NCBI GenBank assembly: GCA_918797485.1
Contig: CAKKNE010000006.1
Coordinates: 1,922,001 to 1,986,000 of the forward strand
Length of the DNA stretch: 64,000 bases
Source: Pelagomonas calceolata
Lineage: Eukaryota; Sar; Pelagophyceae; Pelagomonadales; Pelagomonadaceae
Reading direction: 5' to 3'
Made by a program: the position numbers and the translations under genes. The notes beneath the pieces were generated by a model. The model saw only the letters and a list, made by a program, of their open reading frames with translations, had not been told where the DNA came from and ran no database searches. Of the stretch, positions 1,433 to 62,261 are shown in pieces (position 1 is the stretch's first letter; every line of letters starts with the position of its first letter).

Positions 1433-1527
1433 AAATTTGAGTCTATACATTGAGTGTCTATCGACGCTACGGTGTAAACTTGAACCAATTTACTATAAAA
1501 CACTCTCGTAGTTCAACTTAGGTTGGC

Positions 1528-1560: not shown

Positions 1561-1571
1561 TGAGCTAGTAT

Positions 1572-1829: not shown

Positions 1830-2415
1830 CCCTAATTTCTCGGCGCGGAGGAGTCGTGGTCTATACTCGACAGGTATGTGCTTGGATCTGATGAGCTTGG
1901 TGCAATAAATGCACAATGCTGCTATGGTAGCTAGGTCTCTCGGGTGTCAATGTGACACGGGAGATGCCAACAGGAAGGACTCTCACTGACTCGGAGACGT
2001 GGGAGTGTGGGCCCGGGAACCCCCTCAGGCTACTACCTCCGAGTCCGAGTCGGCTACTCGGGCGACTACCCGGCTACTTCCAGTCCGTGCAGTCCGTGAG
2101 CGACCTCTAGGCTCGCTACCCCCCCCGGGCCCTGGGCATTTGCGTCCCGGAACTTGAACCCGACTCGGAATTGACCCGGACTATGGCTATCATGATTTCA
2201 TTCAAGTTAGGAAAAAGACAAAATAGAGGGTCTAGGGCACCGATCATGATTGATAGGGTTAGCCGGAGGTCTGCAAGGGTTTTGTTGTGTTGCTCTCATA
2301 CCACGTCGGCTAATGTGCGATTTGCATGTGATCTGCAAAACTTGGAACAGACACACAATCCCAATATCAAGCAATCACTATATACACATGCCAAGGCCAT
2401 TTTATCTCTCCTGTA

Positions 2416-4143: not shown

Positions 4144-4151
4144 CCGCGCTC

Positions 4152-7452: not shown

Positions 7453-8060
7453 AAAAAAATTGAATGAAAAAAACGAGGAAGCTGATTGTTGGTTCCATTA
7501 AAAAATACACTGCCTCACGGTGCACGACGACGCTTTTGGCGGCACGACGACGCTTTTGGCGCTGCTGCAGTCGACCACCGCGGCCAAGGCGGCGGCTCTG
7601 AAGGACCCATAAGGCCTTAGATACGGCTCTGACCACAGCGTGGTGCCGGTAGCATGGCTTCTAGGGAACTTACGCTGCGCCAGCTGTCACTAGGACAAAC
7701 GACCCAAGTTCTGCATGCAGAAAAGAAGCGCAAAATTTGCGGCTTGGAGAAAATTGAGGCCTTGAGGTTCTTCCCTTGGGTTCTCGAGGACCTGGCCCGG
7801 CACGGACACCAAGCCAGGAGCGCCGTGCGTCGCGAACAAAAGTTGCCGATAGTGCCTGGATTTTAAAATCTAGTGAAGGAAGTGGATGCCTAAGTGAATG
7901 ATCGTCCCCATAGGACGATGGCGGTGGACTGTCGGAGTCCGATGATTCTATGGGCCAGCGAGCAGGACGCCGGGGCGGCGGAGAGAGCAGGCCCGGGGGT
8001 TGACACTCTCAGGCTTGTCACTCCACAGGTCTAGCGACCTGCTGCGCAACATAAGCGAGT
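7453..8060. other. Intergenic with a 20-bp tandem duplication
   Basis: GCACGACGACGCTTTTGGCG is present twice in tandem (7522-7561). A 70-codon plus frame at 7654-7866 (MASRELTLRQLSLGQTTQVL...) has no recognised homology and could be chance. Nothing else is supported. Confidence 0.4.
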
Positions 8061-8319
8061 GCAATGGAAATACACGTCTAGTAGGATCTCAAGGTTCAAC
8101 TGAGACGTATCCAAGCACAACCCGTACTTGTATTACCCGCCTAGGCTACTTCCCATCCTAGGGTACTCCGATATCCCCTTAGTAGGGGGAAGTCGCCTCT
8201 CACTCCTAACTATTATCATCCTGAGTCACCTTTAATTGACGGACGTAATTCCCCGTCACAAACCCCATCAAACATGGGAGAAACTATTTCGTTAGACGAC
8301 TACACTACGCTGCCGGGGA
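8061..8319. repeat. 258-bp direct repeat, copy B
   Basis: Near-identical to 1572-1829 in the same orientation, 6.2 kb away. The most visible differences are near the middle (ACCTTTAATTG against ACTTTTATTG) and at the right end. No ORF and no terminal inverted repeat. Confidence 0.8.
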
Positions 8320-10200
8320 AGTCCGGAGCTACACACTCTATTTCCCTATGCATCGCAGGTTATGGGCCCACGCTCTGCGTGGTGTCTAACGGAACTGTCC
8401 AGAGGCATTGAACAACCCTCCGGACGTTTTAAAACCTAACCTAAATCATTATAAAACATCACTAAACGTTATTCAATTACCAAACTCCACAAATTAATAT
8501 ATTAAACGCAAAACTCAGAAGGCTCGCAATCTCGAAATTAACATAAGATGGCGGAACCTCCTGTACCAGCCGACGGCAACCCTTCTACCTGAGAACCCCA
8601 GCGGGTATGACGACTGAGGTCATAGGAGGATCCCGTAAGGCATTAGCACTAAATATGTGGTAGAAATTACTAGAATGAGCCTGGGACTCGGAGTGTCTCA
8701 TACTAAGTAATTACGCTTATTGAATGTAGTAGAAAGTCAGTAGAAAGAGGATAAGGGAACCTACTAGGGAGTAGGCCGACACCCTCACTAGGTTGCCATT
8801 AACCTGTTAATTACCCGTTATTAACCTATAATTACCCCTCGGAGGGGATCCGGGGTTAATAACCCGCTAACCCGACGGGTTTTCGACTAACCCGTTTAGT
8901 GAGTTTAGCGAAAGACCCCTCCGGGCGAGCGGATGGGCGCAAGCAGCCCGTTGGGCTTTTGGATACGTACAGGTGCGCCAGGGCAAGTACCAACTCATGT
9001 GGCCCGGCGCAGCCCAGGCCAGCGCCAGTGGCCCGTGAGGCCCCCTCCCCTACCCCTCTATAAGATCCCGGGGTTAATAACCCATACTAACGGGTAATTA
9101 CCCGGGTTACTGACCCCGGGCCACGATTGGGGTTAATAACCCCTCGGGTAAATGGCAACCTAGCACCCTCACTGGCACCGACTCGGAGTTTTTTTTACAG
9201 TAAGATCCTGAGCGATCCTCCCCAAGGTAAATTCGTGCTGAATTACCCTGCGACACTTAATGCTGGAGCCGTGCCAGTGAGTACAGCTAAATTTGGCTGT
9301 TTTACCCCCCCCTTTTCAGCGTGAACGGCTCAAACCTGATGGCCAGTGAATATTGCCACCGTTCGGCACCTTCCGATTCCCGAGGGCGAAAGCAACCACA
9401 CTTTGCCATATAACAATGGGGTCTCGCTTCACGTAGGTCCTGTCCGCGTCCTTGGGGGCTGCGCAGAAGCTGAGATCAAAACTATTCGCGTGCTATGCGT
9501 CGGTGCGATCGGCCGCACGAGCTCCGCACGGAGCTCTGCACGGCCGCCGGATGCTGCCAAATCACCTCACTCGCTGGTCAGCGTCGATAGACTCCCTTCC
9601 CGCGCGCGGGCGGGACGCAGCAGGCGCGCATCGGCGGCACCGGCAGCCAAACGAGACACTCATGATGCTGGCTCGTAGTTTTACCCCCCCTACTTTTCCA
9701 AAAACCACATCGCAGAGAAAAAAGACATGCGATCGTCTTTTTTGGCGCCGTTTCGAGCCGATCGGGACTCTCCGACAAAGTTATTATTTTTAGATGCAGC
9801 CGAACTCCAGTCATCAGGCAGCCTCGCAGCCCGCTGTGGTGGTGCACCACAGAGCCACTTTAGCCTGTCCCGCCATAGCTTTTACGATTACCGCCGGCTG
9901 CTCGTCTAGATACCTGACCACGTTGGTGATAGGTTTCTCGTTACTAGAGGGCAAGGGCAAGATTTCCATCTAGATTTCCCGCACTGGGCACCTCAAAGCA
10001 GAAATTTCAAGTCAAAGTGCAAGCGGGGATGTCGAATTTCGGGTTGAGGGTTCACTAAGGTACCGCATGCCAGCCTGAGTGTCGGTCCCGTGACATTACT
10101 AGTTGTATATGAAGCATGTCAACTCGTCAAGTTAGCTACCGCTATGTTAGTGTTTGCCCGTTGACTGCAAACTTAAAACGTCCCGCTCCCACCACTCATC
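8320..10200. other. AT-richer intergenic stretch up to the compositional boundary
   Basis: Apart from the MITE at 8788-9163, no gene is supported. Short plus frames around 9346-9793 are not protein-like. The sequence changes from mixed composition to strongly GC-rich between about 10.1 and 10.2 kb, directly before the CAP-Gly/AAA gene. Confidence 0.5.
8788..9163. mobile_element. hAT-like non-autonomous element (MITE), 376 bp
   Basis: CTAGGTTGCCATT (8788-8800) is the exact reverse complement of AATGGCAACCTAG (9151-9163). Both ends are directly flanked by CACCCTCA (8780-8787 and 9164-9171), an 8-bp target-site duplication. Eight-base duplications with short TIRs are typical of hAT transposons. 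The interior is rich in GGGTTAATAACCC-type palindromes, several of them repeated near both ends, and has no ORF, so it would depend on a transposase elsewhere. Intact ends and duplication suggest a fairly recent insertion. Confidence 0.82.
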
Positions 10201-12226: not shown

Positions 12227-13282
12227 TTACTTCACCGCCACGGCGTCCGCGGCGGCGAGCGCCGCGTCGATGTCGGCGTGGAACTCGGCCTCGAGGGGCG
12301 CCAGGGGGGGCCGGATGCCGGTGGCGAGGCCCCGGGCGCCTGCGTGGAAATCAACCGGCGTGTCGGGCGCACCGTCGAGCGGCGAGGACCCGACATGGCC
12401 ACGCCATCGAGCAGATATCAGGACGAACGCGCCGTGCACTTGATTTCCTCGCGGCCGCGCGCGGTGCAGCGCGTACTTCACCGGGATGGGGTTCGCCTGG
12501 CAGAACAGCTTCTCGTGGAGCGGCCGCAGCGAGTCGTCGATGGCCCGCGCGGCGGCGCCCGCCGGCGCCCGCAGCATGCGCGCCATGGCGGCCGGCGCGA
12601 CGTTCGCCGTGACCGAGATGACGCCGTCGCCGCCGAGCTCGACGAACTCGCGGCCCATGGCGTCCTCGCCCGAGTAGAGCAGGAGGTCGCCGCCGCAGGC
12701 GTCCCGCAGCGCCGCGACGCGTCCGTTGTCGCCCGTGGCCTCCTTGATCCCCCTGACGTTCGGGTGCGCTGCCAATCGCGCGACGGTCTCGGGCAGCAGG
12801 TCGACGCCCGTGCGTCCCGGCACGTTGTAGAGGACCATGGGCAGGTCGACGGCCTCGGCGACCGCGAGGAAGTGCGCCTCGAGCGCGCGCTGCGGCGGCT
12901 TGACGTAGTACGGCGTCACGACGAGCGTGCCGTCCGCCCCCAATGCTTTCGCCCGCCGGCCCATGGCCACGACGGCGCGCGTGTCGATGGCGCCCGTGCC
13001 GGCCACGACGGGCACGCGGCCGCGGCACGCGTCGACGCACGTCTCGAGCACGCGGTCGCGCTCGGCGGCGTCCAGCGTCGAGGCCTCGCCCGTCGTGCCG
13101 AGCGCCACGACGCCGTCCGTGCCGCTCGCGACGTGCCACTCGAGGAGGTTGCGCAAGGCGCCGTAGTCCACGGCGTTGGCCGCGTCCATGGGCGTCACGA
13201 GCGCGACGTAGCTCCCGCGGCCGAGCTGGACGGCGGCGGCCACGACGCCGGGCCAGAGCATGATGAGGCGACCGCCACGCAT
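12227..13282 (-). CDS. dapA: Dihydrodipicolinate synthase-family enzyme (DapA-like), interrupted by an introner
   Basis: Two exons, 12463-13282 and 12227-12339, give a 310-residue protein. Family signatures are present in order: the phosphate/pyruvate motif GTTGEAST, the VAGTGAIDT loop, TPYYVKPPQ, YNVPGRTGVD and the Schiff-base lysine in GIKEATGD. The C-terminal NPIPVKYALHRARG|LATGIRPPLAPL is restored only when the 123-nt intron is removed (GC donor, CAG acceptor, phase 1). DapA condenses pyruvate with aspartate semialdehyde in lysine synthesis; related lyases use other aldehydes, so the substrate is not certain. The start was set at MRGGRLIMLWPGVV; the frame is open further upstream. No clear plastid peptide is seen. 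Confidence 0.85.
   Translation of the reverse strand: MRGGRLIMLWPGVVAAAVQLGRGSYVALVTPMDAANAVDYGALRNLLEWHVASGTDGVVALGTTGEASTLDAAERDRVLETCVDACRGRVPVVAGTGAIDTRAVVAMGRRAKALGADGTLVVTPYYVKPPQRALEAHFLAVAEAVDLPMVLYNVPGRTGVDLLPETVARLAAHPNVRGIKEATGDNGRVAALRDACGGDLLLYSGEDAMGREFVELGGDGVISVTANVAPAAMARMLRAPAGAAARAIDDSLRPLHEKLFCQANPIPVKYALHRARPRGNQVHGAFVLISARWRGHVGSSPLDGAPDTPVDFHAGARGLATGIRPPLAPLEAEFHADIDAALAAADAVAVK
12340..12454 (-). mobile_element. Introner element 1 (115 bp), spliced as an intron
   Basis: Ends are CTGCGTGGAAATCAA and TTGATTTCCTCGCGG (plus-strand view), matching the introner TIR CTGTGTGGAAATCAA. Flanks are near-identical 8-mers: GCGCCCGG (12332-12339) and GCGCGCGG (12455-12462), read on the gene strand. 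The intron is the upstream target copy plus the element (12340-12462, 123 nt). The donor GC comes from the target duplication and the acceptor CAG from the element end. The internal CCACGCCATCGA core is kept on one arm only, so this is a deletion derivative. Its orientation is sense to the gene. Confidence 0.88.
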
Positions 13283-14207
13283 AGCAATTTGCTCTAAAAC
13301 ACTCTCGTAGTTGGGCCCTGCTACTGCGGTACCGCGTTCTATGGGTAAAGCGCGCGGGCCGCGCGGCGAGCGTAGACTAGTGACAGAGACGCTAGCAAAG
13401 AGACAAAGGTACCAGCCGCTAGAGGGCGTACGGGCACCCAAGCGGCCGTCGGCAGCTTTCCTTTTGCGCGCAGGCGCAAAATTGACCGAGAACGACGGAA
13501 AACGTTAGCAATTTTAGACGATGCGACGCCGACGCGAGAGCTCCCTTTCAGAGCTCCATCCTCCCGCTTTAGAGCCCCGAGACGGGTAAAAAAAAAAAAC
13601 TTAAAAAAAGTACTATATCGCGGCGACGGTGTGCATATGGCCTTGACGCAGCCGTTGAGCGTCGTCGAGCCGCGAGGGAGCCTCTCATACCCTACCGACC
13701 AGCGTCCGCCTTTGGTTCCAGCGAAAACCGCCGGGAAATGAGCCATAGTGCCCCCGTTCGCGACCGTGTTCGGGAACGAATGGATGAAAATCTACGCGGT
13801 GGATTTGTAACTTTCTCATAGCAAAGTTCACGCAAATGCGGTCCTGAGCCCCTGTGTCGCGCTCAGTTACAAATCCAACGAGAGGGGGCCGCGGGGCGTC
13901 GATCGTCGAATGGAACCGCCGACCGTGGCTGCCCTTCCCGAGCACCGTTGCTGCTGAAACTTGGCATGCGAGGCCGTCATGGGGGCATGCCTCTGCCCCC
14001 GGGGCGGTGCTGGTGGCGGTGCACCCGCTGGGTCGCACTGGCATCCGCCTCTAAAACACCAAAAGGAGACATACATCTGCGGGGTAAAAGTAGCCTGGTT
14101 CCTCCGGTGCTTCTGCTCCCTCCCGTGTATAGCATATGCCCCATGGTCTATGGCTGTAAGACAAAGCTCAAGATAAATCACTGGCGATCTCCTTTCGAAA
14201 GATAAGT
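13283..14207. other. Intergenic, no gene seen
   Basis: Includes an A-run at 13591-13600 and an 18-base match, TAAAACACTCTCGTAGTT (13295-13312), to the left arm region near 1496-1513. Open frames here are antisense or low-complexity. It probably contains the promoters of the DapA-like gene (minus) and the small plus gene at 14208. Confidence 0.4.
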
Positions 14208-18181: not shown

Positions 18182-21100
18182 ATGGCGGCGCAGACCAGCG
18201 CCAGCGAGGACGAGGAGGACGACGCGAGCGCGGCGCCGGGCGCGGCGCCCGGCGCGCCCCCCGGCTATGCCTGCCAGCACTGCCGCGCGCTCTGCCCGTA
18301 CAACGCGCGGCGCTGCGGCGCGTGCGGCCGCGGCGTCCGCTACGCGCCCGCCGCGGGGCCCGAGGCGGAGGACGGCGACGACGACGCACGGCGCGCGTCG
18401 GCGCCGCCGTCGGCGCGGCGCGCGGCGCCGGGCCGGGCCGGGCCGCGGCTGAGCCCCGTCGGGGCCTTCGACGCGCGCGAGGTCGCCGCGCACCTGAGCG
18501 CGCTGCGCTGCGAGCAGCTCCACCGCGCGCTGCGCCAGCTCGTGCAGCGGCTCATGCAGCACCCGCTCAACCAGAACTGGTTCAACGAGCCCGTCGACCC
18601 CGTCCGGCTGAACCTGCCGGACTACTTCGCCATCGTCCGCGAGCCCATGGACCTCGGCACGGTCAAGTCGCGGCTCGCGGCGTTCGCGTACAGCGACGTG
18701 CCGGCGCTCGCGGCGGACGTGCGCCGCGTCTTCGACAACGCGCAGCGCTACAACCCGCCGCGCAACGCCGTGCACCGCGCGGCGGCGGAGCTCGCGCGCG
18801 ACTTCGACGCCGACCTCGAGCGCGCGCTGGAGCGCTGCGCGCGCGCGAGCCAGGCGGCGCACGAACACGCGTGCGGCCTCTGCCGCGGGCGGCGCTGCGC
18901 CCTCTGCGGCGACAAGTGCATCACGCTCGAGGCGCCGGCGCTCATCTGCTCGGGCCCGTGCCAGCAGCGCGTGCGCCGCGACCAGCAGTACCACGCGACG
19001 CGCGACGGGAGCCGGCTCTGGTGCCACAAGTGCTACCTGGGCCTCAAGGCGGTCATCCCGCCGCCGGCCGACGCGCACGCGCGGCCGCGGGCCCAGGACG
19101 CGGCGCACGCGCAGGCCACGGGCCTCTGGTACAAGCGCGACCTGATCAAGCGGCGCTTCGACTGCGACGTGCACGAGCCCTGGGTCCAGTGCGACTGCTG
19201 CCTGCGCTGGGCGCACCAGGCCTGCGCGCTCTTCAACGCCAAGGCCGAGCGCGACGCGCGGGGCGCGGCCGGGGCCTTCGTCTGCCCGCTCTGCGAGCTC
19301 CAGCACGCGCACCTGCCGCCGCGGGGGAAGCGGCGGCGGGGCGACGGCGCGGAGGCCGCGGCGCCGCTGCGGCTGCGCGCGCTGACGAAGACGCGGCTCG
19401 CGCTCGAGGACGACGACGACGCGGCCTCGGACGACGACGGCGGCGGCGGCGGCGGCGGCGCGCCGCGCGCGCGGCCCGCGCCGGCAACGGGCGCGCGGCG
19501 CTGCGACGACACGGTGCTGCGGTCGTTCCCCGCCCCGGGGCCGCTGCTCGAGCTGCGCGAGGGCGACGCGTGGCACGGCCCGCCGCCGCCGGGGCCGCCC
19601 GAGGCCGCGCCCGGCGCCGTCGCGGGCGCGCGGCGCCGGGCGCCGGCCGCGCCCGCGCGCTGGTGGCGCGCGGCGGACCTCGCGGACACGCGGATGACGG
19701 CGTTCCTGCAGGCGCGCGTGCGCCAGCGCATGGTCGAGCTGGGCGGCGCGGCGGCGGGCTTCGCGCCGACCGTGGCCGTCAAGCTCGTGAGCTGCGTGCC
19801 GCGGCGGCTCCGCGCGCCGGACATCCTGCGGGAGCACTTCCGGGGGCGCGACGGCGCGGCGCTGCCCGAGTTCCTCAAGTACGAGTCGCGGGCCGTCGTC
19901 CTCTTCCAGAAGCTGGACGGCTGCGACGTCATGGTCTTCTCGATGTACGTGCACGAGTTCCCGACGGCCGCGGGCGGGCCCTCGGCGGGGCGCGTCTACG
20001 TCGCCTACCTGGACAGCGTCGAGTACTTCCGGCCGCGCACGGCGCGCACGGAGGTCTACCACGAGCTGCTCGTGGCCTACCTCGACTGGTCGCGCGGCCG
20101 CGGCTTCGACGCGGCGCACATCTGGGCCTGCCCGCCGCAGCGCGGCAACAACTTCATCTTCTGGTGCCACCCGCAGCACCAGCGGACGCCGTCGCGCGAG
20201 CGGCTCACGGAGTGGTACCGGGCGATGGTCGCGCGCGCGACGGCGACGGGCGCCGTGCGGCGCGTCGCGACGCTCTACGACGAGTGCTTCGCGGCCTGGG
20301 ACACGACGCGGCGGCGCCACAAGCCGCAGCACGCGCAGCGGCCGGCGGTCTGGGTCGACAACGCCGACGCCGACGAGGGCGCCCCGGCGCCGCGGCTGCC
20401 CGTCTGCCCGCCCGTCTTCGACGGCGACTACTGGCCCGAGGAGTGCGGGCGGCTGGGCGGCCTGATCGAGCGGCGGCGGGGCCTCTTCGGGGGCAACCAC
20501 GCGCTGCGGTCGCAGACCGAGGGCGCGCCGGAGCACCAGCTCGAGGGCCTCGTGCTCTCGCTCAAGGCGCAGCCCGCGGCGTACCCCTTCAACCGGCCCG
20601 TCGACCCCGAGGCGCTGGGGCTCAAGGACTACCGGACCGTCTGCCCGCACCCGATGGACCTGGGGACCGTGGCCACGCAGCTCCAGGCGAAGCGGTACGC
20701 GACGCCCGACCGGGTCGTGGCCGACGTGCGGCTCGTCTTCCGGAACGCCTCGCGCTACAACCCCCCGGGCCACCCGGTGCACGAGGCCGCGCGGACGCTG
20801 CTCGCGCACTTCGAGCGGAAGCTGGACCAGCTGCTCGAGCGGCTCGTGAGCACGGGCGCGGCCGAGTCGCCGGACGCGTGGCTCGCGGGCTACCCCCTGG
20901 ACCGGGCGGCGGCGGACGCGGAGGACCGGGCGCCGTCCGTGCGCGCGCGGCTCCTGCCGGAGCTCGCCGGCAGCGTGCACCGCATGAAGGAGTCGCTCTT
21001 CGTGCTCTACCTGCAGGACGGCCGCGCGGACGCGTCGGGCGAGATCCGCGACCCGGACGCGGGCCTCCGGCTGAGCTGCCCGCTGCTCGACTCGCGCCAC

Positions 21101-25100: not shown

Positions 25101-26200
25101 CGGGCCCACCGCAGGCCGTCGCCGCCGAGAAGCGACCCCTCGACGAGGATCGACGCGCACCCCGCGAGCGCCGGCCCGTAGAGCATGTAGGACTGGCCCG
25201 TGATCCACGCGAAGGTGCCCAGCGTCAGGACCCTATCATGTCCCGCGCGCGCCGCGAAGACGTAGTCCATCGTCCGCGCGACGCACGCGCCGTAGCCCCC
25301 GTGGCCGTGCACGAGGCCCTTGGGCCTGCCCGTGGAGCCGCTCGTGAAGACGACCATGAGCGCGGCCGCGTCGCCGACGGCGACGGGCGGCGCGTAGGGC
25401 GCGCGCCGCGCCGCCCACGCCTTGGCGTCGCCCCGACGTACCGCGAAGCGGGGCCCGGCGTCCCCGAAGAGCCGCGCACACCGCGCGGCCGCGGCCTCGC
25501 CCCTCGTCACGGCGTCGCTCGCGGCGACGACGAGGTCGGGCCGCAGCTCCCGGAACCGGTGCGCGAGCGCCTCGTCCGTCGCGTCCAGCGCCGTGCACGT
25601 GTAGCACGCCGCCGCCCGCGCGAGCGCGTGGCAGACGACCGCCTGCTCGAGGCCCGTAGACGCGTGAAGGTAGACGCGCGACGCCGGCGTCAGGTCGAGC
25701 GCGCCGCGGCAGGCCAGGACGGCCGCGAGCAGCTCCGCGCGCGTCAGCCGGTCGCGCTCGTGCTCCGCGGACACGGCCTCGTACGCCGCGGCGGCGCCCT
25801 CCAGCGCGGCGGGCGCGTCGACGGCGCTAAGCGCGATGTTAGTCATAGCTCCCCGAAACCACGTCAGGTAGGGTGCCTCGGCGTCGTCGACGAGCCGCGT
25901 CCACGGACGCCAGGCCCGGGGCCGCGCGGTCGCGGCGGCGCGCAGGCCGCCGGTGCCCGGCACCAAGCACTGCCACTGCGTGGCCCCGAGTTTGCACCAG
26001 GCCCCGTCGTCGTCGGCCCAGTAGATCGCGGACGCGTAGGCCTCGGACTCTCGAGTAGCACAACCATCTGCCTCGGGGCGCACTTTCACGAGCTCCTGTG
26101 TGAAGCGACATCGATGGCGTCCCGACCGGCACGCCATCGCCGCGACACGTCGAAGAGTTCTGGCGCGGGACCGCACGGCTGCTGCTCGCGTGCTATCCAT
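22138..26200 (-). CDS. Multidomain acyl-activating megaenzyme: adenylate-forming ligase, dehydratase, ACP, hotdog thioesterase-like, membrane anchor
   Basis: Exons 23265-26200 and 22138-23173 give about 1323 residues. An acetyl/acetoacetyl-CoA synthetase-like ligase spans about 60-650 (VFTSGSTGRPKGLVHGHGGY near 281, FHGRRDEVLNVAGVRVGVEE, and the catalytic Lys in PKTVTGKTQRG near 634). A polyketide-type dehydratase follows (about 680-900): HDVGGSPVLP fits the HxxxGxxxxP catalytic motif and MDAPLQ the second Asp motif. A carrier domain (about 930-1010) has DNGLHSLRAVEL with the phosphopantetheine Ser. A hotdog thioesterase-like region (about 1090-1210, FAQTDYNRHFTVRE) and one hydrophobic helix (about 1255-1280) end the protein. 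No ketosynthase is present. An unusual lipid or polyketide-like product is inferred. The N-terminus is uncertain: a hairpin-like possible intron lies at 26098-26150. Confidence 0.8.
23174..23264 (-). mobile_element. Diverged introner-like intron (91 nt)
   Basis: On the gene strand the intron starts GTGGCACC and ends GATGTCCGCGCAG. Inside it, CGGTGTGGACGTCAG and the complement of its end (CTGCGCGGACATCAAC) are recognisable relatives of the introner TIR, with GGACRTCA in place of GGAAATCA. Splicing in phase 2 restores KINRA|FGVALDAARL across the carrier-domain helix. The flanking octamers have diverged, so this is an older copy or a separate subfamily. Confidence 0.65.
26098..26150 (-). mobile_element. 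Possible degenerate introner (53 nt)
   Basis: The minus strand has GTGTCGCGGCGATGGCGTGC ... GACGCCATCGATGTCG, a hairpin resembling the introner core (GATGGCGTGG/CCACGCCATC), ending CACACAG. If removed it would join PAPELFD to ELVKVRPEAD in frame. If retained, the frame from the ATG at 26200 also stays open, so splicing is unproven. Confidence 0.4.
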
Positions 26201-28887: not shown

Positions 28888-31365
28888 TTAAGACCGCCTT
28901 TCCCGGACGCCACGCTTCTTCGGGGCCGTCGCCCAGGGGGGAGGCCCGGCGTCCGTATGCGCCGCGCGCCGCTCCTTCCAGCGGACGGGCGGCGGGACGG
29001 CCGCGTCCGCCACGACCGACACGTCCTGTCCGGCGAATGTCACGTCGCCGCGCCTGACGCCCGCGAGCGTCTGTCCGGCGGCGAGGTCGACGTCGACGCG
29101 GCCATTCGGGCGCACGCACTTGATGGTGCCGGTGGCGCCGTTGACGGTGACGGCGGCGCCGACCGTCAGCTCCCCGGGGTTCTCGCGGCGCGGTCGAGGC
29201 AGGGCCCGCCCCAATGGCTCCGCGTCCGCGAGGCGCTCGAGCGTTCGCAGGAAAGCGCGGTCCCCGGGCGGCGGTGCGACGCCCGCCGCCTCCAACGCGG
29301 CCGGGTCGTCGAGCAGCGCGCCGCGAGGCAGGTCGCGCAGCGCGCCGACGGCCGCGCACAGCGCCGCGGGGCCCGCGGCCCAGGCCGAACCCAACTCGGC
29401 CAAGGCCCCCTCGGCCCAGGCCGCCGTCGCCGCCATGAACCTCCCGACGGACGGCCCGAGCGGCGCCTCGGCGGCGAATTCGCGCGCGCACGCGTCGAGG
29501 TCCCGCCGCGTGAGCCCCAGCCGGAGGCATTCGAGGGCCTCCCCCGCGTCGCGCGGGCAGCGCCGAAGCTGCGCCCGGTACCGCGGCGTCTCCAGCCAGG
29601 CCCCGAGGCCGCGCCGCAGGTGGCGCAGGGCGGCCCGCCGCCGCTCCTCCCGCTCTCCGTCGTCGTCGCTCGCGACGTCGCGTTCCACGCTGTACGTGTT
29701 GCCGCCGGCGAACAGGTCGTCCCAGTCGTCGGCGAGGCGGCCGGTCTCCCGGGGGGGCGAATCGGACGACGACGCGTCGTCGCCGTCCTCGTCCTCGTCC
29801 TCGCCCCGCACGAACGCGACGAAGTCGGCCTCGTCGACGCGGCCGTCGCCCCGCCGGTCGAGCCGCGCCGCGACGGCCCGCCGCGAGGCCGAGCCGAGCC
29901 TCGCGCCGACGCGGTCCAGGAGCCGGCCCACGTCCACCGCCGCCCGCCCCGCGGCCGCCTCGCGGAAGACCGCCGCCGCGTCGATCGTGCCGTCGGCACG
30001 CGCCGCGCAGCGCCGCAGCTCGTGCCGCAGCGCGTCGATGGCGCTGGCCGCGCTCCTCGACTCCGCGCCGTCGGCGGCGGCGAAACGCGCGAGACCCTCG
30101 AGGTCGTCGCCCCCGGCGGCCGCCCACAGCTCGGCCGCGTCCGCCTCGGCGAGTCCGTGGCGGCCGAGGAGCGCCTCGACGGCCCTCCGGTCGACGCGCC
30201 CGCCGCGCGCCAGCGGCGCAAGGCACCACCGGACGCCGCCCGGCGCGCCGCGGCTCGCCGCGGCGAGCGCCGCGCGGACGCGCGCCGCGACCGCCGGCGC
30301 CACCGCCGGCGCCGCCGCGCCGGCCGGCCCGCGGCTTGCCCGGGGCCGGCCGCCCGTCTTCGCCGCCACGTCGCCGGGGGCGACGCGGTCGCGCGTCCCG
30401 CCGTCCGCGAACGCGACGTCCAGCGTGCCGTCGAGGCGGCAGCGCGTGACCGTCGCGGACTTCTCGCCGCCGGCCGCGTCCGCGACGACGACGTCCGACC
30501 CCGCGCGGAGGTCCGGCGGCGCGGCGGCCGGCGCGGCCGCGGCGCCGGGGGCCTCGTGGGCGTCCGGCAGCCGGAGGACCTGGTCGTAGGACGCCGCGAC
30601 GGCCGGCGCGCCGGGCCGGGCGCCGTCGAGCGCCACGAGGAGGAAGCCCGGCCGGCGGCTCGTCACGGCGCCGCGGCGCCACTCGCCGTCCAGCAGGACC
30701 GCGCAGCGCGCGAAGCGCGGCCAGGGCCGCGCGTCGTCGGCCGCGGGCGCGGGGTCCGCCGCCGCGTCGTCGCGGCGCCGGCGCCAGCGCGCGCGCAGGG
30801 TCTCGGCCGGCAGCGTCCCCGCGCCGGCGTCGTCCGCCGCCGCGGCCGTGTCGTCCGCCGGCGAGAGCGGCCGCACGCGGTCGCCGGCGACGCCGTGCTC
30901 GACGCCGCCCTCGTCGTACGCGACGTCGAAGCGGAGGGGGCCCTCGGCGCCGACTTCGTACCGCGCGCGCGCGTTCGGCGCGGCGCCGGCCGCGACGACG
31001 TGGCGCCTCTCGTCGCAGCGGCCGCGCCGGAGCACCTCGCCGCAGCGGCGCCGGCCGCCGTGGAACGCGACGGCGACGCGGCGGCCCGCGGCGCGCGGGG
31101 ACGCGCCGTCCCGCGACGCCTCGGCGTCGGGCGTCGTCGCGTCGGCGGAGGCCGGCCCGCGCGCCCGCGGCGTGTCCGTCGTCGTCGCGGCGGCGGTCCC
31201 GCGCCTCCGGAGGCGCCGCGGGTCGACGCGGTGGAGCCGCGCGCCGTCCGCGGAGAAGAGGTCCACGCGGCGGTCGGACCGGACGCGCGCCACGCGGTAG
31301 GGCGCCCAGGCCGCGCCGGCGTCCGCGAGGCAGTCCACGACGTCGCCCACGGCGAAGGAAGCCAT
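28888..31365 (-). CDS. Large protein with Tudor-like barrels and an EF-hand
   Basis: 825 residues from MASFAVGDVVDCLADAGAAW, chosen because the barrel-like domain begins at once; the frame stays open to 31641. Barrel-like repeats lie at about 3-45, 85-150 (RRVAVAFHGGRRRCGEVLRR), 215-265 (CAVLLDGEWRRGAVTSRRPG) and 285-330 (GSDVVVADAAGGEKSATVTR). A helical centre follows, containing one plausible EF-hand (LDRRGDGRVDEADFVAFV, about 510) and an acidic patch (GEDEDEDGDD). The C-terminal region has another barrel (VGAAVTVNGATGTIKCVRPN). It is related in layout to the 26983-28506 gene beside it on the same strand; the two may be tandem relatives. Chromatin or scaffold function is inference. Confidence 0.65.
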   Translation of the reverse strand: MASFAVGDVVDCLADAGAAWAPYRVARVRSDRRVDLFSADGARLHRVDPRRLRRRGTAAATTTDTPRARGPASADATTPDAEASRDGASPRAAGRRVAVAFHGGRRRCGEVLRRGRCDERRHVVAAGAAPNARARYEVGAEGPLRFDVAYDEGGVEHGVAGDRVRPLSPADDTAAAADDAGAGTLPAETLRARWRRRRDDAAADPAPAADDARPWPRFARCAVLLDGEWRRGAVTSRRPGFLLVALDGARPGAPAVAASYDQVLRLPDAHEAPGAAAAPAAAPPDLRAGSDVVVADAAGGEKSATVTRCRLDGTLDVAFADGGTRDRVAPGDVAAKTGGRPRASRGPAGAAAPAVAPAVAARVRAALAAASRGAPGGVRWCLAPLARGGRVDRRAVEALLGRHGLAEADAAELWAAAGGDDLEGLARFAAADGAESRSAASAIDALRHELRRCAARADGTIDAAAVFREAAAGRAAVDVGRLLDRVGARLGSASRRAVAARLDRRGDGRVDEADFVAFVRGEDEDEDGDDASSSDSPPRETGRLADDWDDLFAGGNTYSVERDVASDDDGEREERRRAALRHLRRGLGAWLETPRYRAQLRRCPRDAGEALECLRLGLTRRDLDACAREFAAEAPLGPSVGRFMAATAAWAEGALAELGSAWAAGPAALCAAVGALRDLPRGALLDDPAALEAAGVAPPPGDRAFLRTLERLADAEPLGRALPRPRRENPGELTVGAAVTVNGATGTIKCVRPNGRVDVDLAAGQTLAGVRRGDVTFAGQDVSVVADAAVPPPVRWKERRAAHTDAGPPPWATAPKKRGVRERRS

Positions 31366-48504: not shown

Positions 48505-49564
48505 ATGAGAGTGCTTTGCTCGCTAGCATTGATAGCATCGGCGGCCGCAGAGGGTCACGACGGCCACGACCATGGTGGAGCCTCTTATGAGCGAGTGGCC
48601 GCGTCTGAATCGACGCGCTTCAACGAGTCCTGAAGGTGCGACTACTAAGGTCACGTTCAACACACAGGTGGGGCGCCATCTTCGAGCTCCACAAGGGCGA
48701 GGACTACACCTGGCGCGCGCAGAAGGTGGACAATGCCTACGCCGATCCCATGATGAAATTGGTGGTCCACCCGGCGACGGACGGCACGATGGAGGCGCTC
48801 GAGGCGCTCGAGGGCGAGGCCGGCGAGCTCATGGAGGGCGCGTGCACGGACGTCAAGGCGGGCGAGACCATCACGCCGGGCGAGACGTGCTACAACCTCG
48901 TCTTCGACGCAGCGGCGGCCGAGACCACGTTCGTTGTCCGCCCGACGGACGACGGCCAGGAGCCCCACGACGCGTTCTTCGCGTTCTTCGCGGAGCACGT
49001 GCCCACGGAGTTCGAGAACGACATCCACTACCTCCAGGACGCCGCGGGCGCCGACGTCGAACCCTGTGCAGAAATCAAATTTCGCGGTGCATCTCCGCTT
49101 GCGGCTGAATCATAACTTCCACGCCATCGACGCGACGCCTGCTCGATGGCGTGGCGGTGTGGGTCTTACCGCACCCGACTCACTGGTTGATTTCCACACA
49201 GGTCGAACCCGTCGTCGAGGAGGGCGGCGGCGGCCACGACGGCCACGACCACGACGACCACGGGCACGGGCACGGCCCCTACGAGTGGATCGGCGTCTTC
49301 GAGCTCGCGGACGGCGAGCCCTACACGTGGACGGCGGACAAGGTGGGCGAGAAGTACGCCGACGCGACCATCTACGTCTACGTCGCGGCGACGGAGGCCG
49401 CGCACACGTTCCTCCACAAGCCGCTGTCGATCTGCATGAAGTTCGGCGTCTTCATCTGCTTCGCCATCGGCGCGGTGGCCATCGGCCTCGTGCTCCTGGA
49501 CCACGAGCACTGCTCGGGCAACGAGGGCGGCTCGGGCGACGCGCACGCGGGCCACAACCACTAG
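48505..49564 (+). CDS. Truncated ZIP relative: His-rich ectodomain with only the last ZIP membrane segment
   Basis: Exons 48505-48590, 48668-49055 and 49202-49564 (GC-AG, then GT-AG introner intron) give 278 residues. The signal peptide MRVLCSLALIASAAAEGHDG is followed by the ectodomain unit also found in the full ZIP gene to the right: AIFELHKGEDYTWRAQKVDN, TTF...FFAEHVPTEFENDIHYLQD and GADVEP. A His/Asp/Gly linker (GGHDGHDHDDHGHGHG) may bind metal. The end, YVYVAATEAAHTFLH ... FGVFICFAIGAVAIGLVLLD then HEHC ... AHAGHNH, is the C-terminal end of the ZIP transporter with the preceding membrane helices and the HNxxD and HExxxxxGD metal sites missing. It cannot transport alone in the known way; a metal sensor, chaperone or regulatory partner role is possible. 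Confidence 0.78.
48591..48667 (+). other. 77-nt GC-AG intron
   Basis: Removal joins SYE to WGAIFELHKG, matching the homologous YEWIGVF, HEWAGIF and YEWAGVF units. The donor is GCGAGTGG and the acceptor ACACACAG. The acceptor end resembles the introner end and TIR similarity is weak, so it may be an eroded introner. Confidence 0.6.
49064..49201 (+). mobile_element. Introner element 2 (138 bp), spliced as an intron
   Basis: Ends are CTGTGCAGAAATCAA and TTGATTTCCACACAG (13 of 15 complementary). It is flanked by a perfect 8-bp duplication GTCGAACC (49056-49063 and 49202-49209). The intron 49056-49201 (146 nt) uses GT from the left target copy and CAG from the element, in phase 0, restoring GADVEPVVEE. 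The interior holds the perfect hairpin CCACGCCATCGA/TCGATGGCGTGG (49119-49130, 49143-49154). The homologous DVEP sites in the neighbouring ZIP gene have no intron, so this insertion came after the duplication. Confidence 0.93.
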
Positions 49565-49625
49565 GCGCCGCTTCAACGAACACTACCCCTCTCCCTCCCC
49601 CCCCCCCCCGGACGCGACCGCAACG

Positions 49626-49857
49626 TCGCGTCCGCCTCCACGTAGTAGTCGCGGGCCGCCGGCGTAAGGCTTCCGCACGGACTCGTTGGCCAGACGCGAC
49701 AGCAACTGTCGCGTCCGCCTCCACGTAGTAGTCGCGGGCCGCCGGCGTAAGGCTTCCGCACGGACTCGTTGGCCAGACGCGACAGCAACTGTCGCGTCCG
49801 CCTCCACGTAGTAGTCGCGGGCCGTCGGCGTAAAGCTTCCGCACGGACTCGTTGGCT
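49626..49857. repeat. Three 83-bp tandem repeats between convergent ZIP genes
   Basis: The unit beginning GTCGCGTCCGCCTCCACGTA occurs three times at an 83-bp period (around 49626, 49709 and 49792), with very few differences. Each junction carries GCGACAGCAACTGTCGC, a 7-bp stem with a 3-base loop. It fills most of the 355-bp spacer between two convergent stop codons, so it could influence 3' end formation on both strands. Not coding. Confidence 0.75.
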
Positions 49858-49919: not shown

Positions 49920-52148
49920 TTAGTGGTTGTGGCCGGCGTGCGGGTCGGCCTCGCCGTCGGCGACCTTGACGCCGCAGTGCTCGTGGTCCAGGAGGATGAG
50001 GCCGATGCCGATCGCGCCGAGGGCGAAGCAGGCGACGAGCCCCATCCGCTTCGCGGGCGAGAGCCGGCCGACCTCGTGGAGAATCTCGCCCGCGGCCTCG
50101 GTGCACGCGACGTACGTGTAGACGCCCGCGGAGAAGGCGAGCAGGATGCCCTGCGTGCCCATGCCGGGCTCGAGCCAGAGGTACCACATGGCGCCGATCA
50201 TGACCGACACGCCGGACACAAAATTCACGGCGCAGGCCTGGGGCACCGTGAGGCCGCCGGGCCCGACGAGCAGGAAGAAGTCGCCGAACTCCTGGACGAG
50301 CTCGTGATAAATTGTACCCGCCGTCACGACCCAGCCCTGGCCGCTCTCGCACCGCAGGAACGAGTGGGCGATGAAGATGCCGTCGACGAAGTTGTGCCAG
50401 AAGTCGCCTGTGTGGAAATCAAAATTTTACGGCGCGTTCGTGCTGAATCTTCGCGTCGACCTCCACGCCATCGATGCGACGCCTGCTCGATGGCGTGGCG
50501 ATGCCGGTTCCTCGCCGCTCGACCGAGCCAAGACGGCCGCGTCATCGCCGAGAAATGACTTAGTGAACCCGACGCACTGGTTGATTTCCACTCAGGAAGT
50601 CGCCGAAGAAGATGTTGAAGCAGAACGCGTAGTCCGGCGCCGCCTCCTCCGCCTCGGCGACGGCCGCCTCGTCCACCCCGACGTCCTTCGCGTCGGCCGG
50701 CGTCGCCTCGGCGGCCTTGAGCGCGCTGCCCAGGCCCTTGACCTCGCGCGGGAACGCGAGCTCGGTCAGCAGCCCGAGCAGGTAGCCGCCGAGCACCGCC
50801 GTGCCCCAGCGCCAGACGACGTCGACCTCGCCGGGCCAGCGCGCGCCCACGAGGTGGCTGCCCTCGATCATCATCAGAAAAACCGCGCAGCCGAAGAGCG
50901 CGCCCGTGCCCATGGCGCTCGCGAAGGGGATGATCGCGCGCGCGCGCACGATCGCGTCCTTGAGCGCGAGCCGCGACAGCGCGCCGGCGAAGGTGCACAG
51001 CAGCACGATGAACGTCGCGAGCATCGAGTGGCGCCACGCGTAGCCCTCGTCGAAGGACAGCTCCGTCTCCGGCGGCCCGGCGGGGACCTCGAGGACCGGC
51101 TCGACGTCGTCGCCGTGGTCGTCCTTCAGGTAGTGGCTGTCGAGCTCGAACTCGATGGGGAAGTGCTGCGCGTAGAAGCCGTACTTGCCCGAGCCGCCGG
51201 TGGGCACTTCCAGGAGGTAGGTCGAGGTGTAGAGGTTCGTGTCGAAGATGAGCTTGTTGCACGTACCGAACGCGATGGGCTCGCTCGAGTGGACGTCCAC
51301 GCAGGTGTTGTTGGCGCTGAGGCGGCGGTGCCCGTGGGAGTGGCCGCCGCCGCCGCCCTCCTCGAAGAGCGGCTCCACATCAACGTCGTTGGAGTCCTGG
51401 AGGTAGTGTTTGTTGTGTTCGAATTCGATGGGCACGTGCTCCGCGAAGATGGCGACGTAGCCGTCCGCGGCCATCGTGAACGTCGTCTCCACCGCGGCGG
51501 CGTCGAAGGTCAGCTGCTTGCACGTGCCGTCGGTTGCCACGGACCCGCCGGCGGCCACCGTCGCGCACGACGCCGCCTCGAGCGCGGTCGTGGCGGCCGC
51601 CTCGGCGCCCTCGAGCGCCTTCCCGAGGTGGTCCTCGGACTCGCTCGCCGGCGTCACCGCCATCACGACGATCTTCATCGCCGGGTCGGCGTAGTCCTTC
51701 AGGTTCTCGTAGTGGGCGTCGTCGTTGGCCTTGACGGCCTCCTCGGTGTTCGCGGTCACCTCCTTGATGAAGAGCTCCATCGAGTCGTCCACGTATTTAC
51801 CGTCCGTCTTCTGCGCGATCCACGCGTACTTGTGGCCGGGCGTCAGGTCGAAAACGCCCGCCCACTCGTAGCCGGCGGCCTGCGGGGGGGTCGAGCTGAG
51901 CGAGCCCGGCGCGGGGGGACGCCGGCGCGCACCTTCTGCGCCCGCCAGGTGTAGGTCTCGCCGGCATTAAATTTAAAGATGCCTGCGTCGCGGCTGCGGT
52001 GAGGCCGGGGACGCGCGCGCGTTGGTTTGTTTCCTTTGGACGCAGGCTGTGGACCAGCCCACTCGTGCGCGGCCTCGCTGCTCACCGCGGCCGGCGCGGC
52101 CGCAGCAAGGAGGAGCGCCAGCGTGCGCGGGCAGCGTCTCGCAGGCAT
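49920..52148 (-). CDS. ZIP (SLC39, LIV-1 type) metal transporter with repeated ectodomain
   Basis: Four exons (52055-52148, 51933-51982, 50604-51879, 49920-50407) give 635 residues. The signal peptide is MPARRCPRTLALLLAAAAPA. The ectodomain has repeats ending AEHVPIEFEHNKHYLQD and AQHFPIEFELDSHYLKDDHG, and a GGGGGHSHGHRR stretch. The ZIP core has about eight helices, with the intramembrane metal-site motifs FWHNFVDGIFIAHSFL (HNxxD) and IYHELVQEFGDFFLL (HExxxxxGD), which match the LIV-1 subfamily of Zn/Fe/Mn importers. The C-terminus is LLDHEHCG ... HAGHNH, shared with the short relative on the left. Introns: 72 nt (phase 1), 53 nt (phase 0) and a 196-nt GC-AG introner intron (phase 1). Confidence 0.9.
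50408..50595 (+). mobile_element. Introner element 3 (188 bp), inserted antisense and spliced
   Basis: Plus-strand ends are CTGTGTGGAAATCAA and TTGATTTCCACTCAG (nearly perfect TIRs). It is flanked by a perfect 8-bp duplication GAAGTCGC (50400-50407 and 50596-50603). The host gene reads on the minus strand, so the target copy supplies a GC donor (GCGACTTC) and the element's other end supplies CAG. The interior hairpin CCACGCCATCGA/TCGATGGCGTGG is at 50463-50474 and 50487-50498. Compared with introners 1 and 2 this copy lies in the opposite orientation to its gene. It is the longest of the three. Confidence 0.93.
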
Positions 52149-58713: not shown

Positions 58714-59866
58714 ACTGGAGCGCTTCCCCGGGGATAACAAAACCGAAGGGTCCGCACTACGACTCCGGTGAGCGCGTCTCCACGCCATCGAGCAGACGGC
58801 GCGTCGATGGCGTAGAAGTTGCCCGCCACACGCCGTCGAGCAGACGCCGCGTCGCCAGCACTCCCTGAGATCAGGAGCCCCACACGTTTAGAGGAGGTCT
58901 CCTGCTGAGCGAGCCGAGCCTTGGGGATGCCTGCCCGTCGCGTAGGTCACGGTGACCATGTGCTCGACGGCGCACCGCAGATTCGTCACAGATCGGGTGC
59001 GCTCGCGGCGCCGTGGTCCGCGTCTCGTTCTGGGGCTGCGGCCAGCGTATCGAGGCTTTGGTATCCGCGAAACAGAGAGCATTGATGTCCATCTCCTCCT
59101 ACGACTTCGCGAGTCGCCGTGGACAGGCTACAGACCGACGTCGTCGCGGCGGCGATGGGCGTTCGCTCTGGCTCTGCCCCGCGCCGACCGCGAACGACGG
59201 CGTTTGAGCATTCCAATGGGTGGACACAAAATCGGCGCCCGAGGTTGCGCGGGTCGCCCGGCGCGTCCACCACGACGACCGGCTTCTTCGACGCCCTGGG
59301 GAACCGCCCGCGGGGCTCGAAGGCTGCACGCCGCCCCCAGGAGGTGGGCAGCCCCATGGATTGGCCGCCGCCGTCAACCCGTTTTCGTGGGCAAGGCCGC
59401 AGCCCGCGGAGCCGTTATCGTAATATCCCAGAGCAGCGTGGGGCAGCGCGGGCGGGCTGGTGCGATTTGGGTGGCGGCCCAGCTGATGCCCCGAAGGTCC
59501 GGCCGGGCGGGCCCTGGCCAGGGCTTTGTCTGATTTCGGTTCTTTTTCTAGAAGGGAATTGAACGCCCGACGCGGCTTGGTGCACGCGTCGCCCGGGCTC
59601 CAGGACTCGTGGTGTGGAATTTTTGGTGCTCCTGTATTTACCACTTTTAGCAGCTAAAATAGCGCGCACCGGCTGCAATTGGGCCGCCCGGGCAGCTTGG
59701 CTGCCGGCAGGGCGAGCCCCTGGCGTACGCCACCATGGCGCACTGTCGGGCAGCCTATGCCGGTAGCTTGATGAGACACACTAGCAAGCAGTCGCGACTT
59801 TTGAGAAATCAAGCAAGGTCTGTGACTAGCTCTAGTGCTGCTCACCGATCCCGATTGACGACGCCA
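58714..59866. other. Downstream of the SNF2 fragment: introner-like cores, no exon recognised
   Basis: CTCCACGCCATCGAGCAGAC with a partner GTCGATGGCGTAG (58781-58820), and a second CACGCCGTCGAGCAGACGCC (58832-58851), repeat the introner hairpin core without intact TIRs. The frames here (for example the minus frame around 58986-59644) do not match a helicase. The missing SNF2 3' part is therefore not in this stretch, as far as I can see. Confidence 0.5.
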
Positions 59867-62261
59867 ATGCAATACATTCGCTGCGCCCTCCTCGCCGCCG
59901 CCGCCTCTGCACTCGCTCCGCCGAGCGTAAGCGCGCGTGCACCCATATCCTTCAAGGCTGTCCACCAGGACAGCACCATCGCCGTCGACGAGCGCTTCGC
60001 CGGCGACAAGACCCTCCCGACCTCCTGCGAGACGGTCGCGACCCCCGGCGTGCAGTGGTGCGCGGACGTCGCTTCAAGCCTCGCCGAGCCCGGGCCGGAG
60101 CTACTCTCGACGCTGACCATGCCCCTGCCATTCCACGTCCCAACGAAGAAAGGCTCTGGTCTAGTACTGGCGAAGGACGAGAAAGGGGAGGACGTTTATG
60201 TGCCGGACCCGCAGTCGTCGAGACTTTGCGAGGAGCTCGTGGCGCTCGAAGGTGTGCCGAACCCCGAGGCTTTGTGGCTATTAGTGAGGGATGTTCCTGG
60301 GCACATTCTCGTGCCGAAACTAAGCGCAGCGATCGCCTACCAGAAGTCGGCGCCTAAGGGAGATTTCTGCCAGTATTTCCTCGACACCCTCGTCCCCCAG
60401 GTGGAGGAGGCGATCAAGGCCGCGCCGGACCTCTACTCGGCCTCGAAGGCCATGAGCGACGTCTCGCATCTCGGCGTGAACCTCGGCGGCGGGTGCTATC
60501 GGACCGTCGACCTCCTGGACAACAAGAACCTGAAGGTGATACCGGGCGTGATGGTGTTCCACCTCGCCGTCGGTCGCCGCGGCGACGGACACAACTCTTT
60601 TGCTAGGGACCGTAACAAGTGCGAGACCGGCAAGGCGATCGTGGAGTCGCTGCGACGCGTCTACGCGGAGGCCGGGTGCCTCCCGGAGATCGTCCTTGTA
60701 CAGGAGTCCTGGGCGATCAACGGTTGTGATCAAGTAGGCGTCCGGCGGTCCGAGAAGGGCGACGTCGTGACGTAAGTTGTCCGAGTCGGACCACTTTACG
60801 CGTCTTCAACTTGCGCGAGCCTCCACGCCGTCGACGCGACGGGCTCCTCGCACGCAGGTACTCCATCAACAAGCAGGAGTGCGCGATCAACAAGGTGGCG
60901 CTTGCGCTACGGCGAGCGGTGCGGAAGGCGACCGCGCGCCTCAACGTGATGGTGCTGGCCTCTGAGGACCGAGGGCCCATCTACTTCGTCGACGCCGGCC
61001 GCGACGCGATCCTCGGCGCCCACTCGGGCCGCTTCACCGCGCTCGAAGCCCATGGTCTGGTGGAGCGAGTCTGCGGCTCGGCGACCTGCCACCACCCAGG
61101 CTTAGCGTGGATGTGCCAGGCCTCGAAGGTCACGTTGGATGCGGCCGTGGCGCCCTGCGTCCGAACGCCGATCTACCGATCTACTCGACCTCATATTTTA
61201 TTTACGCACAGGTGGCGCAGGGCGTCGCGGCGATCATGGGCGCCCACGGCATGAAGGTGCCCGACGCGCTCGCGCAAGCGACGACGGCGGGCGTCCAGGA
61301 GCCGCCGGAGGGCTTCGAGCGCAAGATTGTTTCTGGACACCTCAAACTCGTGGCGCGGGACGGCGCCGTCGCGTCGCGCGCCGACGACGCATACGCGGCG
61401 GCGGCTTCATTAGAGGCGGACACGTCCTTGACGCCCACGGCGGCGCTCGATGCTGTGCGGGCGGCGCGGCTCCGCCTGGAGGGCCTCCGGTACGAGCCCC
61501 GGAGCAACGGCCACGCCCGGTGGTTCTTGGACGGCGCCCCCGAGCCGATCACGCGCGTGAACTACGCGGAGGCGCTGTCGGCGCGCCTCGTCGACGAGGT
61601 CCTCGTCGGCCTGCGCTACGACGCGGACGAGCGGGTCAAGGTCGCGTTCGACGAGACCGTGCGGGAGCATTACGCTGTGAAAGGTCTCGACTACGAGTGG
61701 ATCAGCGGTATGAGCACGCGCGGCTATTTCATCGAGGGCTGTTTGGCCTCCTGCTGGCCTTTCCGGATCCGTTCGATAGAGGACGCCCGCGAGTGTTCGC
61801 GCGAGCTGGGCGACGGAGGCCTCATCGGCCGCGGTCTCGACGACCTGGACGTGAGGCGGACCTTCTTTAAGTACGCGACGGACTGGAGCGGGCGGTCTCA
61901 GGCGGAGCGCGACGCTTTGCCCACCCCGACGCATAACTTTGCGGGAGGATGGGTGTCCGTCGTGCCAGAAGACTTCGAGACGCTCGGCTCCCCCGCCGAT
62001 TTGCGCTGGGCGGCAGAAAGGACGGACGACATGCCCGAGAATCGCCCCGTCGGGATTTCATTAACGTCCGGTCCGTCGTCGAACTGGCGGGTGTTCATCG
62101 CGCGCACGCATCTCGGCTGCTATCCCTCCGCGGCCCAAGCGTGGGCCGCGTACCCGAAGGCTACTGCCGACGACGACTCCGAGTCCGACAACAACTCGAT
62201 CACGCTCGACCAGATGCGCGAGAACGCGATGCTGCCGCCGGCGAAGCGGCATCGCTCGTGA
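59867..62261 (+). CDS. Unknown protein with plastid-type leader, three exons
   Basis: Exons 59867-60771, 60858-61128 and 61212-62261 (introns of 86 and 83 nt, both GT-AG; phases 2 and 0) give 741 residues. The start MQYIRCALLAAAASALAPPS is a signal peptide with an ASALAP motif, a variant of the ASAFAP plastid-import motif; the frame opens 44 codons earlier but without a leader. The rest is not recognised. It includes a cysteine-bearing stretch (YSINKQECAINKVALALRRA), a central region with GRDAILGAHSGRFTALEAHG and a C-terminal half with EWISGMSTRGYFIEGC and THNFAGGWVSVVPEDFETLG. It ends acidic then basic (DDDSESDNNS ... PPAKRHRS), which could be a nuclear signal and conflicts with plastid import. 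Confidence 0.6.
60772..60857 (+). mobile_element. Degenerate introner-like intron (86 nt)
   Basis: The intron GTAAGTTGTCC ... GCACGCAG contains CTCCACGCCGTCGACGCGAC, half of the introner hairpin core, but no recognisable left TIR. The left and right octamers GTAAGTTG and GTACTCCA share only GTA. It is best read as an old introner whose left end has drifted to a stronger donor. Confidence 0.5.

Follow-up and report, generated by a model that had tools for sequence, protein, structure and literature searches.

The host gene and the focal element

The window, that is, the whole 64-kb stretch of Pelagomonas calceolata DNA analysed here, contains two convergent ZIP-related genes separated by a tandem repeat of an 83-bp unit in three copies (49611–49856). 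Its G+C content is 48–53% in positions 1–10000, below the 58–81% of the remaining window (2-kb steps). The plus-strand gene of the pair, which hosts the focal element, extends from 48505 to 49564 (start to stop codon of the spliced model) and is predicted to encode 278 amino acids, comprising a ZIP-related extracellular region and the last membrane segment. In BLASTP comparison with the neighbouring ZIP, 64 of 181 columns are identical in the extracellular region and 37 of 70 in the last membrane segment. The host protein has no match in Pfam at E-values up to 0.1. The label 'ZIP-related', given in the first-pass annotation, thus applies to only part of the gene.

The focal element is 138 bp long (49064–49201, plus strand) and is a shortened relative of a ~203-bp form. 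Its 5' terminal inverted repeat, CTGTGCAGAAATCAA (49064–49078), and its 3' terminal inverted repeat, TTGATTTCCACACAG (49187–49201), are complementary at 13 of 15 positions, and the 5' terminus carries two changes. The element lies between two identical 8-bp copies of GTCGAACC, at 49056–49063 and 49202–49209, interpreted as a target-site duplication. The GT of the first copy is the predicted 5' splice site, the downstream exon begins with the second copy, and the 3' terminal repeat bears the CAG acceptor together with a possible branch site, TTGAT. The predicted intron is thus a GT-AG intron of 146 nt (49056–49201, plus strand). Its deletion fuses GCC GAC with GTC GAA CCC GTC, giving ...QDAAGADVEPVVEE... 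in frame and restoring GADVEPVV. The left and right flanks of the element, each taken alone, pick the plus strand and matching frames. The element, its terminal repeats, the perfect duplication and the restored frame had all been described in the first-pass annotation, correctly to the base.

The 278-residue model would also require removal of a second, upstream intron of 77 nt (48591–48667, plus strand, GC-AG), which is predicted from a repeated YEW...YTW segment of the protein: its removal restores YEWGAIFELHKGEDYTW, similar to the second repeat, YEWIGVFELADGEPYTW. This intron is not recognisably an introner, and neither a duplication nor a terminal repeat was seen at it. It starts with GCGAGT and contains TACTAAG in its 3' half.

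The focal element has at least 43 matches in the genome at E ≤ 0.001 (40 of 760 candidates scored), and its closest full-length relative among the matches listed is 86% identical. The first-pass annotation had called the intron young and had dated the insertion after the duplication of the ZIP-related genes. The youth of the intron has no special support, given this 86% identity and the perfect duplications also found in 47 of 70 sampled elements (see below). As that annotation had stated, no interruption is present at the matching DVEP sites in the neighbouring gene, so the insertion is consistent with an origin after the gene duplication; this is compatibility and gives no date.

Other copies in the window

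Two further copies of the family are present in the window. One, of 188 bp (50408–50595, minus strand), lies in the adjacent minus-strand ZIP gene, within the segment encoding GDFWHNFVDG. It has a perfect duplication, GAAGTCGC, at 50400–50407 and 50596–50603, which reads GCGACTTC on the coding strand and would provide a GC donor. This copy and the focal copy are in opposite orientation relative to their own genes, with the internal motif common to both on the plus strand. Against the Pfam Zip model the gene scores 52.7 bits with precise removal of the predicted intron and 50.3 bits with 12 nt added.

The other copy, of 115 bp (12340–12454, minus strand), lies in the minus-strand dapA gene, flanked by the duplication CCGGGCGC/CCGCGCGC, which matches at 7 of 8 positions. 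Its sense 5' terminus is decayed to CCGCGAGG and has GA, not GT, at element position 5; its sense 3' terminus, the acceptor end, is intact. Three dapA models were scored against TIGR00674: the precisely spliced version reached 302.6 bits, the version lengthened by 12 nt 297.7 and the version keeping the element 291.5. The precisely spliced product, the only version so compared, aligns without gaps over the junction to a solved DapA (PDB 6p90). Retention of the element would leave the frame open for 41 codons, so it is the score and not the frame that argues for removal.

At 58766–58861 (strand not assigned), 143 clustered BLASTN alignments mark a decayed fragment of the family, where a search for two termini flanked by a duplication found none. 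Short, weak matches (E from 8e-4 to 3e-6) occur at 13638–13679, 18205–18235, 26123–26148, 29086–29117 and 60806–60851 of the window, and are possibly remnants.

Copy number, length and orientation in the genome

The first-pass annotation had proposed a genome-wide search with the terminal repeat, and a search with the terminus points to very many copies. In the 32,445,274 bases searched (8 contigs), the exact 15-base terminus CTGTGTGGAAATCAA occurs 1,562 times (790 forward, 772 reverse), compared with 0 for the same pattern read backwards. With up to two mismatches there are 3,250 occurrences (1,653 + 1,597), compared with 22 (14 + 8) for the control. Since each element has two termini, this suggests that the genome holds roughly 1,600 introner copies, a figure made imprecise by copies with a decayed end.

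Individual elements were sampled from 80 fetched loci, of which L001–L030 were picked for their resemblance to the focal copy, L031–L060 for an exact terminus and L061–L080 from the list of exact termini. A sampled element was required to have both termini matching at 10 or more of 15 positions and an 8-bp duplication whose copies differ at no more than one position; the presence of the duplication is thus a condition of the search. These loci yielded 70 distinct elements, 47 of them with a perfect duplication, and 106 elements with no more than one mismatch in the duplication were found in 120 loci. The coding strand was assigned with a codon model; its training set was the window plus the fetched loci, and it gives the expected strands for the two genes concerned here. 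Sufficient flank was available for 68 elements, and 44 of these passed two requirements, joined flanks free of stops and a strand difference of at least 25. The focal copy is among the 44. The ZIP copy is outside because its locus ends too soon. An enlarged set of 67 coding copies was also assembled, with the added loci taken mostly from a list preselected for GY at both ends; the 44 copies of L001–L080 are therefore used as the primary test.

Elements of 203 bp are the most frequent (12 of 67 copies). Together with one 8-bp copy of the duplication this length predicts an intron of 211 nt, which agrees with the peak near 210 that appears in published passages on intron length in this species (PMC9481584). 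Relative to the gene, 27 copies are sense and 24 antisense among the 51 of 67 coding copies that could be assigned by alignment to one reference orientation. A variant at L003:1501-1592 (on the other strand in L004 and L005) matches the focal element over 86 bp at 97% and then passes directly into ACACAG; it seems to be an internal deletion which kept an acceptor. Two termini that point the same way and lie 140 bp apart, at G000:C2:2598098 and 2598238, have the flanking 8-mer AGGAGCAT in common, possibly representing a tandem pair.

These counts bear on the reading of the focal site as an ordinary old intron, whose apparent duplication and terminal inverted repeats would be chance look-alikes. 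We found no point in support of this reading. It has to contend with 1,562 exact termini in the genome against 0 in the control, with the perfect 8-bp duplication at the focal site itself, and with the 106 elements in 120 loci whose duplications differ at one position at most, and it is extremely improbable.

The predicted donor dinucleotide and the coding strand

Among the 1,562 exact termini, the outer end of the flanking 8-mer is GY in 987 cases and the inner end is RC, which is GY on the opposite strand, in 1,002; 494 show both, which by subtraction leaves 67 termini (4.3%) with neither. Of the 70 distinct elements, 23 have a duplication starting with GY on the forward strand only, 26 on the reverse strand only and 21 on both; no element has neither.

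When the coding strand is considered, the pattern is one-sided. All 44 copies have a coding-strand GY as the first two bases of the duplication, 8 nt away from the element, compared with 13 of 44 for the antisense equivalent, and where GY is confined to a single side, that side is always the coding strand (31 of 31). At other offsets from -20 to -1, GY is present in 4–15 of 44 copies, except for two offsets that overlap the GY at -8, where it is found in none. The frames of the left and right flanks fit precise removal in 43 of 44 copies. The predicted acceptor reads CAG in all copies but one (43 of 44), which has TAG. Of the 24 copies that were dropped, 17 failed through stops and 7 through a weak strand difference; 16 are concordant with the pattern and 7 have GY on both sides. 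In the last dropped copy, L061:785-990, the best strand opposes its only GY, and there are three stops. This coding-strand pattern is what would be expected if the duplication gives the donor, the terminal repeat gives the acceptor, and insertions that cannot be spliced are lost.

The antisense frequency of GY (13 of 44) exceeds the 18.5% background, so part of the GY signal may be a target preference. On a rival reading, the element would be an unspliced MITE tolerated in the gene, with the GY pattern reflecting transposase target preference only. The antisense excess would fit a mild, symmetric preference, and the open frame of 41 codons in retained dapA is also as such a reading would have it. 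However, there is no reason to expect that a transposase can tell which strand is coding, whereas the one-sided GY lies on the coding strand in all 31 cases; in 61 of 67 copies a retained element would disrupt the frame or bring in a stop; and the retained dapA model scores 11 bits lower. A retained element is accordingly regarded as very improbable.

The predicted donors of the 44 copies consist of 31 GT and 13 GC, taken from coding flanks in which 755 GT and 1,864 GC are available. Allowing for availability, GT is thus retained at ~5.9 times the rate of GC. The distribution of intron phases is close to that predicted from how often each dinucleotide is available at each codon position: for GT donors the counts are 13, 3 and 15, compared with an expected 14.6, 4.0 and 12.4, and for GC donors 2, 6 and 5, compared with an expected 4.6, 3.8 and 4.6. 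In the primary set of 44, positions 3–8 of the duplication do not differ from background (p from 0.071 to 0.43), nor do exon positions -6 to -1 (p from 0.2 to 0.97). In the enlarged set, positions 3, 6, 7 and 8 of the duplication do differ (p = 0.003, 0.04, 0.0002 and 0.0007). Part of that set was selected on positions 7–8, which may explain the differences at 7 and 8 but not those at 3 and 6. It is possible that there is a further donor or target preference beyond GY.

Splice signals and the predicted position of the donor

The 5' end of the U1 snRNA is canonical, AUACUUACCUGG; two U1 places were found genome-wide, scoring 64.3 and 58 bits, under the family gathering score of 69.5. The U6 snRNA carries ACAGAGA. 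The predicted introner donors have no better a match to the U1 5' end than a correspondingly mixed set of GY sites from coding sequence (mean 3.41 vs 3.53 of 11 positions). Within the primary set, GT donors have a mean match of 3.45 compared with 3.80 in the background (p 0.08), and GC donors 3.31 compared with 2.88 (p 0.13). In the enlarged set GT donors are lower (p 0.048) and GC donors higher (p 0.03).

It is conceivable, though doubtful, that the donor is set by position, with the spliceosome recognising the terminal repeat and cutting at the GY 8 nt upstream without useful U1 pairing. If so, the length of the duplication made by the transposase would be part of the splicing code, and about one-third of the donors would be GC (13 of 44).

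Most copies (36 of 44) also have a GT at position 5 of the element, where the U1 match is slightly better (3.89 of 11). This raises a serious rival explanation, in which the element bears both splice sites and its donor lies at position 5, so that each insertion adds 12 nt (8 of duplication and 4 of element), equivalent to four amino acids. A family of this type is known in Aureococcus sp. (MAG), according to the legend of Fig. 2F in PMC9860276, and the position-5 GT has a slightly higher U1 match than the duplication donor (3.89 vs 3.41 of 11). Since 12 added nucleotides keep the frame, and would introduce an in-frame stop in 0 of 67 copies, the frame does not discriminate between the two donors. 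However, an element-borne donor leaves the GY exactly at -8 on the coding strand of 44 of 44 copies without a reason. Position 5 is not GT in 8 of 44 copies, including the focal copy, where it is GC, and it is GA in the dapA copy. The dapA and ZIP models lose 4.9 and 2.4 bits, respectively, when 12 nt are added, and a 203-bp element would give an intron of 199 nt, unlike the peak near 210 in the published passages on intron length (PMC9481584). Given the register of GY, the scores of the dapA and ZIP models and the intron length in print, a donor within the element is judged the less likely of the two, and quite improbable.

TTGAT occurs at a fixed place in the terminal repeat in 61 of 67 copies, and we infer that it is the branch site; its frequency is not independent evidence, because detection of a copy requires most of the repeat. 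Among the 67 copies, mismatches at terminus positions 1–3 are more numerous at the sense 5' end than at the 3' end (9 vs 1, Fisher p = 0.02), whereas at positions 11–15 there is no clear difference (18 vs 10, p = 0.18). This asymmetry of decay was considered as a sign of splicing selection and was given little weight, as the detection threshold biases the counts.

Search for an autonomous partner

One hAT-like element was found, at L082:3042-6708, with terminal inverted repeats CAGGGCAGCAGAAG that match at 14 of 14 positions, an 8-bp duplication, TTGCTCGC, and an open frame of 721 amino acids. It was rejected as the partner of the introners: its termini are unlike CTGTGTGGAAATCAA, and the shared termini by which a hAT MITE would be recognised are not seen. 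The genome contains no match to the Mutator-like transposase model PF10551, for which the control was found in 3 of 14 genomes, and none to the KDZ transposase model PF18758, for which the control was equally silent. Among 31 exact termini whose flanking 8-mer is neither G-initial nor C-final, inspection by eye revealed no facing termini within 10 kb.

A proposed origin of the intron

Based on these observations, it is very probable that the focal element is an introner, that is, a non-autonomous, MITE-like DNA transposon acting as a predicted intron, whose donor is provided by the target-site duplication and whose acceptor is provided by the terminal inverted repeat. The features that place it among introners of the DNA-transposon type are the terminal inverted repeats (13 of 15 positions in the focal copy), the duplication of constant 8-bp length (free of mismatches at the focal site, as in 47 of 70 sampled elements), the dispersed copies (1,562 exact termini vs 0 in the control) and a splice site apparently co-opted from the duplication (coding-strand GY in 44 of 44, specific to this register). 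Members of the family have this anatomy and duplication, carry GY in register on the coding strand, restore the frame on removal and occur in both orientations relative to the gene.

In the mechanism envisaged, a transposase supplied in trans would insert the element, with an 8-bp stretch of exon duplicated in the process. Of the two resulting target copies, the upstream one, when it starts with GT (or GC, as at other elements), would become the 5' splice site, and the terminal repeat ending in CAG would become the 3' splice site. Splicing would then excise the element together with one copy of the duplication, leaving the mRNA unchanged. Since the same repeat is present at both ends, an acceptor is available in either orientation, and the main requirement on the target would be GY on the coding strand at bases 1–2 of the duplication.

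Several observations fit this explanation less readily: the predicted donors have no U1 advantage, 36 of 44 copies have GT at position 5 of the element, one dropped copy (L061:785-990) is discordant, antisense GY is above background, and dapA would stay in frame if its element were retained. The first-pass annotation's central proposal, an intron made by transposon insertion, is largely borne out, with a duplication donor and a terminal-repeat acceptor supported by GY in 44 of 44 copies, frames in 43 of 44 and the homology of dapA and ZIP; the splicing itself is predicted.

The focal locus is a clean, base-resolved example of a transposon turning into an intron. The coding-strand GY rule, together with the silent U1 signal, makes it testable how little sequence defines a donor for a spliceosome. 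It is likewise testable whether intron phases and GC-AG introns merely reflect the placement of GT and GC in codons.

Comparison with known introners

Introners of Aureococcus anophagefferens, as Huff, Zilberman and Roy reportedly described in 2016, carry one splice site and co-opt the other from the duplicated target. The host there is also a pelagophyte and the element also a short, non-autonomous DNA transposon, the likeness being one of description. Passages of PMC7789003 describe the Aureococcus introners as having direct repeats and constant-length terminal inverted repeats with canonical splicing motifs, and their characteristic length in the passages of PMC9481584, ~210 bp, is close to the 211 nt predicted here for the most frequent intron. 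For Pelagomonas calceolata RCC100 the same source gives a genome of 32.4 Mb, made up of six nuclear contigs and one each for plastid and mitochondrion, and an intron-length peak of ~210 bp, which it links to the introner elements described in Aureococcus (PMC9481584). The peak is like that predicted here, and the published passages on these introns give length only. In the literature searched, including those passages of PMC9481584 and few subscription papers, no description was found of the focal locus or of the coding-strand rule in Pelagomonas.

Other introner families differ in several respects. Those in the passages of PMC9860276 have a 4-bp duplication, compared with 8 bp here, and family 4 of Aureococcus sp. 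in that source carries both splice sites and adds 12 bp, an arrangement disfavoured for the Pelagomonas family. The introners of Amoebophrya, as far as the passages of PMC7789003 go, resemble the present family in having inverted repeats inside and direct repeats at the boundaries. However, the direct repeats there are 3–5 nt long, in contrast to the 8-nt duplications here, and the elements were defined among non-canonical introns, whereas those in Pelagomonas are predicted to be GY-AG (PMC7789003). A figure legend in the same paper indicates that a U1 protein is missing in Amoebophrya (PMC7789003), whereas the Pelagomonas genome has a U1 with a canonical 5' end, and U6. On these comparisons, it is well supported that the Pelagomonas introners represent a known kind of intron-making system, of which the focal copy, with its predicted intron, would be one of very many.
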